Below are positions 1,764 to 7,548 of a DNA stretch of 34,563 nucleotides, piece after piece; positions within the stretch are counted from its first letter, which is position 1, and every line of letters starts with the position of its first letter. The stretch comes from Acidobacteriota bacterium (GTDB taxonomy: Bacteria > Acidobacteriota > Terriglobia > Terriglobales > Acidobacteriaceae), in assembly GCA_021828835.1 (NCBI GenBank), contig JAJZCY010000012.1, positions 1-34,563 of the forward strand, written 5' to 3'. The notes below the pieces were generated by a model, which was not told the DNA's origin, ran no database searches, and was given only the letters and a program-made list of their open reading frames with translations. A program made the position numbers and the translations under genes.

Positions 1764-1849
1764 TCCCACCGCGTCGGGCCACCTCCCCTTCCATTTCCCT
1801 GACGCCATCTGTCCAGCCTGCATCCTACCCCGATGCGAGGCTTATGGGC

Positions 1850-3640
1850 ATGACGAGTTCGAACCCAACCCGGCTGCTCTCGCGGCTCGTCATCATGATC
1901 ACGGCCGTGCTGGCGGTTGCGGCGCTCTATCTGGCGAAGGTTCTCTTCCTGCCGCTCGCATTCGCCGTCCTGTTCGCCTTTCTGCTTGCTCCGCTGGTCA
2001 GCTCCCTCGAACGGATTCGCCTCCCGCGCACCCTGGCAGTGCTCGTGGTGATCGCAGCGTTTGCCGTTCTGCTGGGATCGATCGGCTGGCTGGCAGCATC
2101 GCAAGTGATCCAGATGGCCGGGAACCTGCCCAACTATCAGGCGAATATCGACAAGAAATTTGCCCTGGTGCTCCATCACAAGAATGCCGCTTTCGGCCGG
2201 GCAGAGGCCGAGGTGCAGCGCCTCGGCAATCGTCTGGAAGTAGCCGTGCTGGGCAACAATACAGACAACGGCGCTCCGGCAAACCCAAGTGGCCCTCAGC
2301 AGCAGCCGGTTCGGGTGCGGGAGGTCAAGCCAGGACGGCTGGACCAGGTCGGCGGAATCCTCGATCCGCTGCTCACCGCGTTCCTCACCACAGTCTTCAC
2401 CTTCTTCGTTCTGCTTCGCAGAGAGGATCTGCGCGACCGCCTGATTGGTCTCACCGGCCACGGCCACGTGACTACGCTCGCCATGATGGATGCGGCGACG
2501 CGCATCAGCCGGTACTTCCGATTGCTGCTGGCGGTCAACGCGACCTATGGAACAATCATTACCCTGGCCCTCTATTTGATTGGGGTACCGCATTTTTTCC
2601 TGTTCGGCGCGCTCGCCTCGATTCTGCGCTTTATCCCTTATGTCGGCGCCCCCACCGCCGCGCTCCTGCCGACTGCACTCGCCTTTGCGGTGTTTCCGGG
2701 TTGGACCCAGGGCCTGCTGGTGATGACCGTGTTCTTCTGCCTGGAAGTGATGACCGCCAACTACGCCGAGCCTCGTCTTTACGGCAAGCACACGGGACTC
2801 TCGTCCATCGCAATTCTGGTCGCAGCGGCGTTCTGGACCCTCATCTGGGGTCCCGTGGGCCTGGTGCTTTCCGTGCCCCTCACGGTATGCCTGGTGGTCC
2901 TGGGCAGTCACGTTCCCAACTTTGAATTCCTCACCGTCATGCTGGGCGATCAGCCCCCCATTCCGCCCTCCTCCCAGCTGTTTGAGCGGCTGCTGGCACG
3001 CGATGAACACGAGGCCAGCGGAGTTCTCGACGCCTATCTGCACGATCACACTCAGGCGCAGGTCTATGACGAGGTGGCGATCCCAGCCCTGACCATGGCC
3101 GAACGCTACCGCCACCAGCAGGACCTTCCCGAGGATGCGGAGCGCTTCATCTACGCGACCCTGCGCGAGCTGATTCTGGAGATCGGCGAAAGGGAACCCC
3201 AAGGCAGCGCCAAGGAACTGAAGCTGCCTGCTTCCGGGCCAAGAATTTTGTGTGTGCCTGTGCGCGATGAGGCCGACCATCTGGCCGGCATTATGGTGGC
3301 GCAGTTGCTTCAGGCCGTCGGTCTCGACGCCACGGCGATTCCGGTGGAGCGCGACGACCAGCTCAGCCTGGTCGCTGCGGAGACACAACCGGATCTTGTG
3401 TTGTTGTCCGCCCTGCCTCCCTTTGCCCGCGCCCGCTCGCGGCGCGTCTACAACAGCGTGCGTTCCCGCTATCCCGATCTGCGTATCATCATCGGCCTCT
3501 GGAACTACCGCGACGATTCGGTTCAGGCAGCAATGCAGATCAGCCGCGGCGAGGTCAGCGAAGCCGCAACCACCCTGGCAGAGGCAGTGACGCAGATTCG
3601 GGCAGCGGTAACCGGGACGGGCTCGATCCGAGCCGCCTAA
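1850..3640 (+). CDS. AI-2E family transporter fused to a C-terminal helical plus B12-binding-like domain
   Basis: The N-terminal two thirds (to about residue 365) is an AI-2E/PerM-type inner-membrane permease. It has hydrophobic segments at about 15-45, 62-85, 178-192, 228-262, 265-285, 290-305 and 322-352, with the family-like FIPYVGAPTAALLP and ANYAEPRLYGKHTGLSSI stretches. A soluble insertion (about 95-165) lies between early helices. The roughly 230-residue tail is unusual: a helical region (about 378-446) resembles the cap bundle preceding B12-binding domains, followed by a Rossmann-like region (about 467-590) with ADHLAGIMVAQLLQAVGLDA and QPDLVLLSALPP. The cobalamin motif DxHxxG is reduced to AxHxxG. 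ATG 1850 is chosen over ATG 1844 because GAGG (1837-1840) is then 9 nt away. Substrate is unknown. It converges with the ABC ATPase gene. Confidence 0.8.
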   Translation: MTSSNPTRLLSRLVIMITAVLAVAALYLAKVLFLPLAFAVLFAFLLAPLVSSLERIRLPRTLAVLVVIAAFAVLLGSIGWLAASQVIQMAGNLPNYQANIDKKFALVLHHKNAAFGRAEAEVQRLGNRLEVAVLGNNTDNGAPANPSGPQQQPVRVREVKPGRLDQVGGILDPLLTAFLTTVFTFFVLLRREDLRDRLIGLTGHGHVTTLAMMDAATRISRYFRLLLAVNATYGTIITLALYLIGVPHFFLFGALASILRFIPYVGAPTAALLPTALAFAVFPGWTQGLLVMTVFFCLEVMTANYAEPRLYGKHTGLSSIAILVAAAFWTLIWGPVGLVLSVPLTVCLVVLGSHVPNFEFLTVMLGDQPPIPPSSQLFERLLARDEHEASGVLDAYLHDHTQAQVYDEVAIPALTMAERYRHQQDLPEDAERFIYATLRELILEIGEREPQGSAKELKLPASGPRILCVPVRDEADHLAGIMVAQLLQAVGLDATAIPVERDDQLSLVAAETQPDLVLLSALPPFARARSRRVYNSVRSRYPDLRIIIGLWNYRDDSVQAAMQISRGEVSEAATTLAEAVTQIRAAVTGTGSIRAA

Positions 3641-3676: not shown

Positions 3677-4492
3677 CTAGACGATGGCTAGCGGCCTCTC
3701 GCGATCAGTGCGCAGCGTCGGCACCGCGGCCAGCAAACTCTTCGTATAAGCGTGCTGCGGGCTCGTGAGCAACTGCAGGGCAGGCCCTTCTTCCACCACG
3801 ATTCCGGCTTTCATCACCGCCACCCGCCCGGCTACTTCGCCCACCACCGCCAGATCGTGCGAAATGAACAGCATCGCCAGCCCGTGCTCGCGCTGGAGCT
3901 CCCGGAGTAGCGCCAGAATCTGCGCCTGTACCGTGACATCTAGCGCGGTGGTTGGCTCATCGGCGATCAGCAGCCGCGGCCGGTTGATCAGAGCCATCGC
4001 GATCAGGATGCGCTGCCGCTGTCCACCGGAAAACTGGTGCGGATAATCGCCGTAGCGGCGCCCGGCCTCAGGAATCCGCACCGCCTCCAGCGCTTCAATG
4101 GCTTTGCGCTTCGCTTCCCTGCCTGTGAACGGGTGGTGAGCCGCGGCGCACTCCGCAACCTGCCTGCCGATGGACATCACCGGGTTCAGCGCCGTCATCG
4201 GCTCCTGAAAGATCATCGCGATCTCGCGCCCGCGTACGCTGCGCAATTCGGCATTGCTTCGCCGCAGCAGGTCGATCTCTGTTCCGCCGCCGCGCCACAG
4301 GATCTCACCCCCGGTCCGGGCTGCCGGCCCAAGAAGCCCCAGGATAGCCAGCGAGGTCGCGCTCTTGCCCGACCCCGACTCGCCCACCAGCCCCAGCACT
4401 TCCCCTTCATCCACATGCAGATCGATGCCGCGCACCGCCTCGTTGGCGCCGAAGCCCACGCTCAGCTTCCGGACTGCAAGCAGTGCTCCCAT
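3677..4492 (-). CDS. ABC transporter ATP-binding protein, oligopeptide/dipeptide (OppD/DppD) type
   Basis: This is a cytoplasmic ATPase subunit that would drive an inner-membrane importer. All ABC motifs are present: Walker A GESGSGKS (37-44), Q-loop Gln96, signature SGGQRQR (155-161), Walker B LLIADEP (174-180) and switch His212. [11 protein letters not shown] and [10 protein letters not shown] place it in the OppD/DppD/NikD branch. At 271 residues it lacks most of the C-terminal extension with the cysteine cluster found in full OppD (about 330). No permease, binding protein or OppF partner is adjacent, so it is an orphan here. An AGGA lies 6 nt before the start. Its start is only 44 nt from the divergent larE start, so their promoters must overlap. 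Confidence 0.85.
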
Positions 4493-4524
4493 GCAGCCAT
4501 CCTACGTGTTTTTCGAGCCAAAGA

Positions 4525-4530
4525 TATAAT
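4525..4530 (+). promoter_or_regulatory. Consensus -10 element, probable leaderless larE transcript
   Basis: A perfect TATAAT ends 6 nt before the larE ATG at 4537, so transcription would begin at or next to the start codon. No ribosome-binding site is present, which fits leaderless translation. No good -35 is visible. On the other strand the same segment reads TATATC, a possible -10 for the divergent ABC gene. Confidence 0.42.
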
Positions 4531-4536
4531 CGGACC

Positions 4537-5400
4537 ATGGCGGCAGCCGCACCGACGCACGGCAATCAGAGCGCAGCGGACAAGCTGCGCGCGCTGGAAG
4601 ACCGCCTGCGCGCAGCCGGCAGCCTGATGGTGGCCTACTCCGGCGGCGTCGACTCCGCATTCCTCGCAGCCACAGCCCACCGTTTGCTGGGCGGCCGCAT
4701 GATCGCTGTGCTGGCCGACTCGGCCTCGCTGGCGCGCCGCGATCTGGAGCAAGCCAAAGCCTTCGCCGCATCGATCGCAATGCCGCTCAAGGTTGTCCTC
4801 ACGGAGGAACTCGACCGGCCCGAGTACGCGCGCAACGACGGCAACCGCTGCTTCCACTGCAAGGATGAGCTCTTCACCGCGATGGAGCGCCTGCGCGCCG
4901 AGCTCGGCTTCGAGCACATCGCCTACGGCATGAACGCCGACGACCGCGGCGACTACCGCCCCGGCCAGCGCGCCGCCCAGCAGCATGAAGTTCTCGCTCC
5001 GCTGGCGGAGGCCGGCCTGACCAAGGCCGATGTGCGCGCGCTGGCGCACGCCGCCGGCTATCCCGTCTGGGACCGCCCCGCCGCACCCTGTCTCTCCTCG
5101 CGTGTGGAGTACGGCCGCACCGTGACCCGCGAGGTCCTGGAACAGGTCGAGAACGGCGAAGAATGCCTGCGCCAACTCGGCTTCCGCGAGTTCCGCGTGC
5201 GTCATCACGGCGAGTTGGCCCGCGTGGAGATCGCCCGCGATGAGTTGCCCCGCGCGCTCAGCATGGAGATGCTGGATGCCATTACCGCAGGGCTGCGTGC
5301 CGCCGGCTTCAAGTTCGTGACCCTGGACTGCGCAGGCTTCCGCTCCGGCTCTATGAACGTCGTCCTGCCCGCCGAGCTTCTCGCTCGCCGCGGCGCCTGA
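4537..5400 (+). CDS. larE: ATP-dependent sacrificial or catalytic sulfur transferase LarE
   Basis: LarE adenylates and thiolates the two carboxylates of pyridinium-3,5-biscarboxylic acid mononucleotide in nickel-pincer nucleotide (NPN) synthesis. The PP-loop SGGVDS (35-40) follows MVAY. The region NRCFHCKDELF (103-113), then GMNADDRGDYRPG (131-143), then APCLSSRVEYGR (183-194), are LarE hallmarks. Cys105, Cys108 and Cys185 are all present; single-Cys LarE proteins use the last as a sacrificial sulfur donor, whereas three-Cys homologues have been reported to hold a 4Fe-4S cluster. This 287-residue copy therefore may be the reusable type (inference). The start at 4537 is preferred over the upstream in-frame ATG at 4483, which lies inside the divergent gene. 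larC begins 40 nt downstream. Confidence 0.93.
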   Translation: MAAAAPTHGNQSAADKLRALEDRLRAAGSLMVAYSGGVDSAFLAATAHRLLGGRMIAVLADSASLARRDLEQAKAFAASIAMPLKVVLTEELDRPEYARNDGNRCFHCKDELFTAMERLRAELGFEHIAYGMNADDRGDYRPGQRAAQQHEVLAPLAEAGLTKADVRALAHAAGYPVWDRPAAPCLSSRVEYGRTVTREVLEQVENGEECLRQLGFREFRVRHHGELARVEIARDELPRALSMEMLDAITAGLRAAGFKFVTLDCAGFRSGSMNVVLPAELLARRGA

Positions 5401-5425
5401 GTCCGCTCCCACTGAAACAACCGTT

Positions 5426-5431
5426 TAGAAT
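5426..5431 (+). promoter_or_regulatory. Possible -10 element between larE and larC
   Basis: TAGAAT lies 9 nt before the larC ATG in the 40-nt gap after larE. It would give a leader of only a few bases, as at larE. No -35 is evident, and larC may simply be co-transcribed with larE. Confidence 0.22.
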
Positions 5432-5440
5432 CAAGACGCG

Positions 5441-6799
5441 ATGCGTATTGGCTATCTCGAATGTTTTTCCGGCATCAGCGGCGACATGCTTCTCGGCGCG
5501 CTTGTCGATGCCGGAGTTCCCTTCTCCCTGCTCGAAGACACCACAGCGGCGCTCAACATCGGCGCGCGCCTCGAACTGCGCAAGGTGATGCGCGGCGGCC
5601 TCACCGGCTCCAAAGTGGATGTAATCCCCCCCGGCGATCCGGCCCACGACCACGCCCAGGAGCCTAGTCATGGCCACTCCCACGAGCACGCGCAGGAGCA
5701 CAGCCACAGTCACGAACATGGGCATTCCCACGCGCACGAACACGCGCAGCATCACGCGCACGCACATGCCCCCGCGCACGCGCATGCGCCGCACGAGCAC
5801 AGTCACGAGCACCGCTCGCTCTCCACGATCCTCGGCATCATCGCCGCTGCGCCGCTTGCCGAGCGCGTCAAGCAGCGCGCCAGCCGCGCCTTTCAGCTCC
5901 TGGGCGAAGCCGAGGCCGCCATCCATTCCACCCCCATCGAGAAGGTGCACTTCCATGAGGTCGGCGCGGTCGACACCATCGTGGACATCGTCTGCGCCGC
6001 TGCCGGCTGCGAGTCGCTCCACGTCGACCGCTGGATGGCCTCGCCGCTGAACGTAGGCAGCGGCACCGTGAAGTGCGCGCACGGCACCCTGCCGGTGCCC
6101 GCGCCGGCCACCATCTCCCTGCTGGGCGATGCGCCCATCTACTCCGCCGGAATGCCCATGGAACGCGTCACGCCAACCGGCGCGGCGATCCTGCGCATGC
6201 TCGACGTCAGCTATGGCCCTCTCCCCGCGATGCGCGTCACCGCGCGCGGCTACGGCGCAGGCGGCCGCGATATGCCCGGCGAAGCGAACCTCGTCCGCCT
6301 GCTGGTCGGCGAGAGCACAGAACAGAAAGCCGCGCACCAACCGGCCGCAGAGCCGATCGCGGTCATCGAAGCCGTCATCGACGACTCCACGCCGCAGTTG
6401 CTGGCCTATGTCAGCGAACTGCTGCTCGAGGCCGGCGCATGGGACGTCTTCCGCACCCCGGTGCAGATGAAGAAAGGCCGCATGGGCGTGCAGTTAACGG
6501 TGCTCTCCAGTCCCGAGCTGGCTTCGGCGATGCGCGAACTGCTGCTGCGCGAGACCACCTCCATCGGCCTGCGCTGGCGCATCGAACAGAAGATCGCGCT
6601 GCCGCGCGAATTTGCTGAGGTGGAAACCCGCTGGGGCAAGGTGCGCATCAAGATCGCCCGCTTCGCCTCGGGAGAGATCGCCAACGTCTCGCCCGAGTAC
6701 GAGGACTGCCGTACCCTGGCCCGCCGTCACGGCGTGCCCCTCAAAACCGTGCTCCAGGAGGCAATGCGCCTCTACGCCGCATCCCAGGAGGGCCGCTGA
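5441..6799 (+). CDS. larC: Nickel insertion cyclometallase LarC with a histidine-rich loop
   Basis: LarC inserts nickel into the dithio-acid pincer nucleotide in a CTP-dependent step, the last reaction of NPN cofactor synthesis. The N-terminus MRIGYLECFSGISGDMLLGA is characteristic. EKVHFHEVGAVDTIVDIV and MERVTPTGAAILR are further family blocks, and the C-terminal half (from about residue 300) contains EAVIDDSTPQLLAYVSELL and RMGVQLTVLS. Between about residues 69 and 124 is a low-complexity metal-binding stretch with 24 histidines in 56 positions, probably a nickel store or delivery loop. In Lactobacillus plantarum LarC arises by programmed frameshift of two frames; here one continuous 452-residue frame encodes it. 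No strong ribosome-binding site precedes the ATG. The larC TGA overlaps the larB ATG by 1 nt. Confidence 0.95.
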   Translation: MRIGYLECFSGISGDMLLGALVDAGVPFSLLEDTTAALNIGARLELRKVMRGGLTGSKVDVIPPGDPAHDHAQEPSHGHSHEHAQEHSHSHEHGHSHAHEHAQHHAHAHAPAHAHAPHEHSHEHRSLSTILGIIAAAPLAERVKQRASRAFQLLGEAEAAIHSTPIEKVHFHEVGAVDTIVDIVCAAAGCESLHVDRWMASPLNVGSGTVKCAHGTLPVPAPATISLLGDAPIYSAGMPMERVTPTGAAILRMLDVSYGPLPAMRVTARGYGAGGRDMPGEANLVRLLVGESTEQKAAHQPAAEPIAVIEAVIDDSTPQLLAYVSELLLEAGAWDVFRTPVQMKKGRMGVQLTVLSSPELASAMRELLLRETTSIGLRWRIEQKIALPREFAEVETRWGKVRIKIARFASGEIANVSPEYEDCRTLARRHGVPLKTVLQEAMRLYAASQEGR

Positions 6800-7548
6800 T
6801 GGATCGCCTGCAACTCGAAAACCTGCTCACCGATCTTCGCGAGGGCCGCACCGAGGTGCCGGAGGCGCTGGAGCGGCTGCGCGGCATGCCCTTTGAAGAT
6901 CTGGGCTTCGCCAAGCTGGATCACCACCGCGCGCTGCGCACCGGCATGCCCGAGGTGATCTTCGCCGAGAGCAAGACCGTGGAGCAGGTGGCCACCATCT
7001 TTGCGCGCATGGCTGCGGCCGGCGGCAACGTGCTCGCCACCCGCGCCACACCAGCCATGTTTCAAGCCGTCGCGCGAGAGGTCCCTAAGGCTGAGTTTCA
7101 CCCATCCGCGCGCGCCATCACGCTGCACCAGACCGATCCCGCGCCTGGCAACGGCGCCGTAGCCGTGGTTTGCGCCGGTACCAGCGACCTGCCCATCGCC
7201 GAAGAGGCGGCCATTACCGCGCGCCTGATGGGCAATACCGTCGAGTTGATCGCGGACGTGGGTGTGGCCGGCATTCACCGCCTGCTGGCCCAGCGGCACG
7301 CGCTCAAGTCGGCCCGGGTTCTGATCGTATGCGCGGGCATGGAAGGCGCGCTGCCTACCGTGGTCGGCGGCCTGGTGAATGCCCCCGTCATTGCCGTGCC
7401 CACCAGCGTCGGTTACGGAGCTTCGCTGGGCGGCGTCGCCGCGTTGCTGGGCATGCTCAACACCTGCTCGCCGAACGTCTGCGTGGTGAACATCGACAAT
7501 GGCTTCGGCGCGGCCTGTATCGCCTCGCTCATCAACCATCTGAGCTAG
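6799..7548 (+). CDS. larB: Nicotinate mononucleotide carboxylase/hydrolase LarB
   Basis: LarB carboxylates the pyridinium ring of nicotinic acid adenine dinucleotide and cleaves the phosphoanhydride, giving the biscarboxylate mononucleotide that LarE thiolates. The C-terminal half is PurE-like: VVCAGTSDLPIAEEA (about 124-138), VCAGMEGALPTVVGGL (177-192), PVIAVPTSVGYGAS (196-209) and VVNIDNGFGAAC (229-240). Cys223 in MLNTCSPNVCVVNID probably matches the reactive cysteine known in LarB. The length of 249 residues is normal. An AGGAGGG precedes the ATG by 6 nt, and the ATG overlaps the larC stop (TGATG), which implies translational coupling. With larE and larC this completes the cofactor pathway; no lactate racemase larA is in the window. 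Confidence 0.95.
   Translation: MDRLQLENLLTDLREGRTEVPEALERLRGMPFEDLGFAKLDHHRALRTGMPEVIFAESKTVEQVATIFARMAAAGGNVLATRATPAMFQAVAREVPKAEFHPSARAITLHQTDPAPGNGAVAVVCAGTSDLPIAEEAAITARLMGNTVELIADVGVAGIHRLLAQRHALKSARVLIVCAGMEGALPTVVGGLVNAPVIAVPTSVGYGASLGGVAALLGMLNTCSPNVCVVNIDNGFGAACIASLINHLS

Follow-up and report, generated by a model that had tools for sequence, protein, structure and literature searches.

The permease gene and its surroundings

The window considered here, the whole 34,563-nucleotide stretch of DNA that was analysed, carries on its forward strand (1844..3640) an open reading frame for a protein of 598 amino acids that combines an AI-2E permease with a C-terminal B12-binding-like tail, and the same long open frame is common to its relatives. 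The permease core occupies residues 15-370 (1886..2953, + strand). It is recognised by the Pfam family PF01594 (AI-2E) over residues 15-351 (E 2.4e-39; 135.9 bits against a cut-off of 34.3), and the end of this match, at residue 351 of 598, agrees with the original prediction that roughly 230 extra residues follow the core. The full-length protein was modelled by AlphaFold2 as a monomer (pLDDT 89.5, pTM 0.77), and its predicted core, residues 3-370, has the fold of a TqsA-type permease, matching TqsA of E. coli (7nb6), an AI-2 exporter, with a Z score of 25.4 and an rmsd of 3.6 over 313 aligned residues. TqsA has no such C-terminal domain, however, and the match stops near the start of the tail, at residue 370 of the model and 341 of TqsA.

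The possibility that the gene is split or chimeric was considered and is unlikely; in the loci of 80 relatives the open frame extends at least 287 residues beyond the start of the match, with the qualification that contig ends cut two of these loci (L070 upstream and L088 downstream) and that the upstream part of a third, L091, is short (441 aa). The source genome, which is 88% complete, contains three AI-2E genes, the tailed one and two ordinary open frames of 386 and 399 aa.

The gene neighbourhood shows no consistent theme. Neighbours lie on the same strand in 40 of 73 cases upstream and 43 of 75 downstream, as defined by a simple longest-ORF script and not by a gene caller, and when 127 of the 148 adjacent ORFs were compared with Pfam (E up to 1e-5) no shared function emerged, no family occurring in more than four. 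At the present locus a phosphoribosyltransferase-fold gene (1110-1763; PF00156, E 8.6e-14) precedes the permease gene by 80 bases, also on the + strand, and PF00156 is absent among the 25 neighbour families listed for the relatives. Further downstream, at 4483-7548 (+), there are three ORFs whose translations read like the nickel-pincer cofactor synthesis proteins LarE, LarC and LarB.

A predicted cobalamin-binding-type fold with a probably rebuilt cleft

AlphaFold2 predicts the tail, residues 370-598, with high confidence (pLDDT 91.8, pTM 0.89, from an alignment of 81 rows) as a four-helix cap followed by a five-stranded Rossmann domain. The cap (residues 375-450; 2966..3193, +) is B12-binding_2-like, its helices spanning residues 375-384, 388-401, 404-424 and 430-450 in the full-length model, and PF02607 (B12-binding_2) is found in the tails of 61 of 81 relatives (E up to 1, best 6.7e-6). 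Two segments that had been assigned to a cap bundle from the sequence, LLARDEHEASGVLDAYL (residues 383-399) and IPAL...ER, both fall within these helices. In the B12-binding-like Rossmann domain (residues 467-590; 3242..3613, +) the five strands alternate with helices, and PF02310 (B12-binding) is found in 68 of the 81 tails (E up to 1, best 4.8e-9).

The single protein reveals this kinship poorly. PF02310 matches it weakly (18.9 bits against a cut-off of 32.1, E 0.0014), PF02607 does not match its tail at E up to 1, an NCBIfam search returned nothing on the tail, and phmmer of the single protein against the PDB found no sequence. A profile of the tail family, searched against PDB sequences, reached the B12 domain of CtMerR at E 2.5e-6. 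Comparison of the tail model with solved structures, by Foldseek and by fold comparison with Z scores, placed photocobilin (8j2x, Z 19.6), the SCHIC domain of AppA (4heh, 18.9) and methionine synthase, MetH (1bmt, 18.4), among the closest folds, with CtMerR (8jbs, 16.9) and CarH (5c8d, 15.8) as further matches. The Rossmann-like B12-type domain foreseen in the original prediction is therefore borne out by the structure prediction of residues 370-598, by these fold matches and by the family hits in relatives, and profiles and model together support a B12-binding-type fold fused to an AI-2E permease.

Conservation was assessed across 100 aligned proteins (the 598-aa protein, 80 from genome records and 19 from further genomes), among which there are 98 distinct tails, two duplicate pairs (L004/L035 and L013/L041) having been left in. 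Dropped beforehand were five weak matches that by reading are not tailed permeases (L008, L026, L027, L028 and L029), the protein's own locus (L001), the fragments L009-L012 and the near-copies L015, L018, L030 and L031. One of the weak matches, L028, is a stand-alone B12-binding-like protein that reads DEYHQLG at the motif.

By the usual nomenclature the motifs of the B12-binding fold include, besides DxHxxG with its cobalt-ligating histidine, GG and SxL, the former of which follows strand 4 and makes room for the tail of cobalamin. Two alignments fix the register of these motifs. The profile alignment to CtMerR (8jbs) lays GDLHEIA over DEADELA, and that to L114, the protein of the source genome with the best B12-binding score (PF02310, 76.4 bits), which reads like a methionine synthase, lays GDVHDIG over DEADELA and GGA over GLW; each puts the cobalt-ligating histidine at position 478. 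In the 598-aa protein this position is D478 (3275..3277, +) within E476-A477-D478-x-x-A481, so that DxHxxG with its cobalt-ligating histidine is absent, and among relatives the column is aspartate in 97 of 100, leucine in two, cysteine in one, and neither histidine nor arginine in any. The two leucines belong to L023 and L024, tailed permeases of a divergent branch in the window's phylum. The GG motif is likewise replaced, by G551-L552-W553 (3494..3502, +), and mostly reads G-x-W in relatives, where W553 is kept in 94/100 and GG survives in 2/100. The SxL motif after strand 3 is present as S522 and L524, the exact pair occurring in 52 of the 100.

This register does not favour the original prediction in one respect. 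HLAG had been read as a degenerate DxHxxG from which the aspartate had been lost; that reading is rejected, since it is off by one residue and H479 (3278..3280, +) is histidine in only 3/100, this protein among them, and glutamate in 71/100, which makes HLAG an incidental string. What has been lost is the histidine, with a near-invariant aspartate in its place. The idea of a non-canonical ligand site survives on different grounds, namely the exchange of the axial histidine for aspartate and of GG for G-x-W. As an observation, then, the tail, its cap and its fold were correctly anticipated and the HLAG motif was not; as an interpretation, a B12-type fold on an AI-2E permease holds and the reason offered for its unusual site falls. 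Four of the 100 tails do contain a DxHxxG string, but elsewhere: three have it in the cap (residue 422) and the fourth in the linker (residue 461).

The cap side of the cleft is altered too. The position that matches the light-sensing cap tryptophan of CarH is arginine in 77/100, and the CarH cap signature Wx9EH is found in none of the 100 caps, the sole such string in the 100 tails lying outside the cap at residue 553 of L104. The cap residue H424 is histidine in 55/100. The loop after strand 1 has no conserved histidine, the maximum between positions 470 and 485 being 12/100 (at 474), with 1/100 at 476 and 0/100 at 480; arginine occurs near the axial position at 474 in 55/100 and at 477 in 11/100. 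Elsewhere the cap residues R382 (2987..2989, +) and P414 (3083..3085, +) are invariant, each in 100/100 aligned relatives, and P526, R533 and R423 are kept in 94, 88 and 77.

Ligands in this fold sit on the face formed by the C-terminal ends of the strands. On that face the loops following strands 1, 3 and 5 vary less (mean entropy 1.75, 1.69 and 1.80 bits) than those on the opposite side (2.85 bits), which is as expected if a pocket has been kept; the loops following strands 2 and 4 are poorly conserved (3.17 and 2.58 bits). Purifying selection acts on the tail: dN/dS lies between 0.17 and 0.33 in the five pairs whose dS is at least 0.17. Four of these pairs are drawn from four close relatives and hence are non-independent, and the range omits the low-divergence pairs L030/L031 and L014/L015. 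For the 598-aa protein against L002 the tail value is 0.25 at 70% tail identity. In the same five pairs the core, which in the relatives' loci includes residues before the start codon, has dN/dS of 0.07-0.22, and in each pair the tail is the faster-evolving part. Such constraint in the coding sequence argues for a working domain and not a relic.

Distribution and phylogeny of tailed permeases

At E up to 1e-10 the tail profile matches 14 of 247 genomes of the window's phylum. In the phylum to which an Azospirillum genome belongs it matches 22 of 299 (one of them over profile positions 1-143 only), and in that of a Phycisphaerales genome 8 of 149; all three figures may be undercounts, because only part of the first candidates was scored where these were numerous. 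Among the 27 matching places in the Azospirillum-phylum genomes, the four loci that were read all have the AI-2E core. In three of the eight genomes of the Phycisphaerales phylum, and for a second match in a fourth, the frames are short (262-352 aa), and L154, the one among these that was read, lacks a match to the permease core. L154 (1202-2044 of the reverse complement) is a stand-alone protein, possibly a non-permease relative, that reads NEPNELAG at the site of the axial histidine motif and keeps GG. An earlier tally gave 7 of 60 genomes, the source genome among them (8/60 less the non-permease G043/L008), and 14 of 247 in the window's phylum (18/247 less the four non-permeases L026-L029).

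By record title the tailed loci come from Acidobacteria, Planctomycetota, Verrucomicrobia, Alpha-, Beta- (Burkholderiales) and Gammaproteobacteria, Myxococcales and Rhodothermaeota; as the 80 loci were selected with a query that contained the tail, no frequency can be read from them. On plasmids there are matches in three of 72,556 records (two from Azospirillum, one from Agrobacterium), all annotated as AI-2E family transporter, with tail coverage of at most 68%.

A tree built from the permease cores puts the 42 tailed rows (38 of the 100 and four tailed proteins read later) on one side of a single branch, with support of 98/97, and 14 tail-less rows on the other, L148 and L149 having been left out for want of a match to the core model. 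The tail-less sample is narrow, comprising TqsA and 13 of 15 proteins from the source genome, its genus and its order, and several branches are long; TqsA is the tail-less row that adjoins the tailed ones, possibly through a long-branch join, and the program itself warns that some joins, that of TqsA included, may be false.

A third domain is sometimes added. Fifteen of the 100 relatives extend more than 60 residues beyond residue 588, and in all six of these 15 that were given to Pfam the extension is a GAF domain above the cut-off; the 598-aa protein has no third domain.

A candidate ligand sensor beneath the permease

The nearest precedent is a single protein, HaAI-2E (WP_052573826), modelled as an AI-2E permease followed by a cobalamin-binding domain and a diguanylate cyclase; the accessible text of PMC11796333 describes it as lacking the light-sensing signature, as a negative control, and as binding hydroxocobalamin but neither AdoCbl nor MeCbl, and notes an arginine at the histidine position and limited space in the domain. 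As far as that description goes, HaAI-2E resembles the tailed permeases in having a cobalamin-binding-type domain, without light-sensing signature or axial histidine, behind an AI-2E permease, and differs in its diguanylate cyclase end and its arginine, where the present family has aspartate and, in some relatives, a GAF domain. The reported residue disagrees with our alignment, where arginine occurs at 478 in none of the 100 proteins, and it may belong to another branch or to a different superposition. The original prediction was aware of no earlier description of such a system; one published case now stands against that in part, and the full-text literature searched, which mostly excludes subscription journals, yielded no description of the tailed family, its spread or its conserved aspartate. 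Of the objection that such a tail might be both widespread in AI-2E transporters and already on record, half holds: the tail is present in several phyla, with one example in print.

The domains of CarH and CtMerR and of the photocobilins (5c8d, 8jbs, 8j2w) share the four-helix cap and Rossmann domain with the tail, and their signature is given in the accessible part of PMC11796333 as GxxW, EH, GxxH and GxxxP (for photocobilins see also the parts seen of PMC10979010, and further PMC10734443, likewise in part). The tailed permeases differ from them in having aspartate for histidine and in lacking Wx9EH from the cap; the published partners of these domains are DNA-binding, bilin or cyclase domains. 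The SCHIC domain of AppA shares the fold and is reportedly not a cobalamin user; in the portion of PMC9144470 available it is reported to ligate heme through a histidine shifted two residues from the cobalamin position, and so sets a precedent for a different tetrapyrrole in this fold.

Our contention is that the tail is probably a little-studied, built-in ligand sensor of the permease. We start from the observed fusion, predicted fold, substitutions, conservation and one-sided tree placement of the sampled tailed permeases. The C-terminus of the permease runs straight into the predicted cobalamin-binding-domain fold, expected on the cytoplasmic side. Between cap and Rossmann domain lies a cleft with conserved surroundings that appears rebuilt, histidine having given way to aspartate, GG to G-x-W and the cap tryptophan of CarH mostly to arginine. 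The permease itself would be a pentamer, judging from TqsA, for which the single entry 7nb6 has five chains of identical sequence, and binding of a ligand by the tail under each subunit would change permease activity; in some relatives the sensor tail may also connect to a GAF domain. On balance we lean towards a TqsA-type, probably pentameric permease with a sensor tail on each subunit that alters its activity, and with a ligand that is probably not base-off/His-on cobalamin. We infer the sensing or gating role, with which the further C-terminal extensions in 15/100 (GAF in the six compared with Pfam) agree, and the signal could run instead from the permease to the GAF or cyclase domains. The conserved loops after strands 1, 3 and 5 and the purifying selection on the tail favour the sensor reading; against it stand the poorly conserved loops after strands 2 and 4, the faster evolution of the tail relative to the core and the uninformative gene neighbourhood.

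Since HaAI-2E binds hydroxocobalamin, the tailed permeases should not be taken to have lost cobalamin binding. The tail might still bind cobalamin, for instance hydroxocobalamin in a base-on state or with another lower ligand, and serve as a sensor of B12 level or of redox state. The binding reported for HaAI-2E, a protein without the light-sensing signature that took up neither AdoCbl nor MeCbl (in the accessible text of PMC11796333), speaks for this, as does the fact that the nearest folds are cobalamin-binding domains; we nevertheless regard it as unlikely, given aspartate at the axial position in 97/100, GG in only 2/100 and Wx9EH in none of the caps, and HaAI-2E, which is absent from the sequence set here, is a putative relative of the tailed family. 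The loss of the key B12-binding residues, together with the limited space noted for the related HaAI-2E domain (same source, same extent), would also fit a tail that has given up all ligands and now serves the permease in protein interaction or assembly. This we consider quite improbable, since the Rossmann loops on the ligand face (strands 1, 3 and 5) are conserved and the opposite ones variable, and the charged residues D478 (97/100) and R533 (88/100) are kept. The idea that the tail is SCHIC-like and binds heme, or a different tetrapyrrole, in place of cobalamin draws on the rank of AppA SCHIC among the nearest folds (Z 18.9) and on the cap, where the tryptophan site is arginine in 77/100 and SCHIC has leucine and arginine for the tryptophan and phenylalanine of AerR (in the available part of PMC9144470); it is very unlikely on present evidence, as the strand 1 loop has no conserved histidine (at most 12/100, at 474), the shifted positions being histidine in 1/100 (476) and 0/100 (480), and H424 in the cap is histidine in only 55/100.

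The sensor reading can be carried further, to a multi-phylum subfamily of pentameric exporters that a ring of repurposed B12-type domains, holding a new ligand through the near-invariant aspartate, would gate from the cytoplasmic side; we put this forward tentatively, as a possible but doubtful elaboration.

AI-2E members may differ widely in function, to judge from the part of PMC7221264 available. The tail places a conserved sensor-type domain on AI-2E permeases in several phyla, and the one related protein touched on in the literature we found appears there (in the accessible text of PMC11796333) as a negative control. The near-invariant aspartate and tryptophan offer a handle for a ligand search and for tests of gating from the inside of the cell. 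We know of only cobalamin and heme as ligands of the B12-type fold, and identification of the ligand of the tailed permeases would add to that repertoire.
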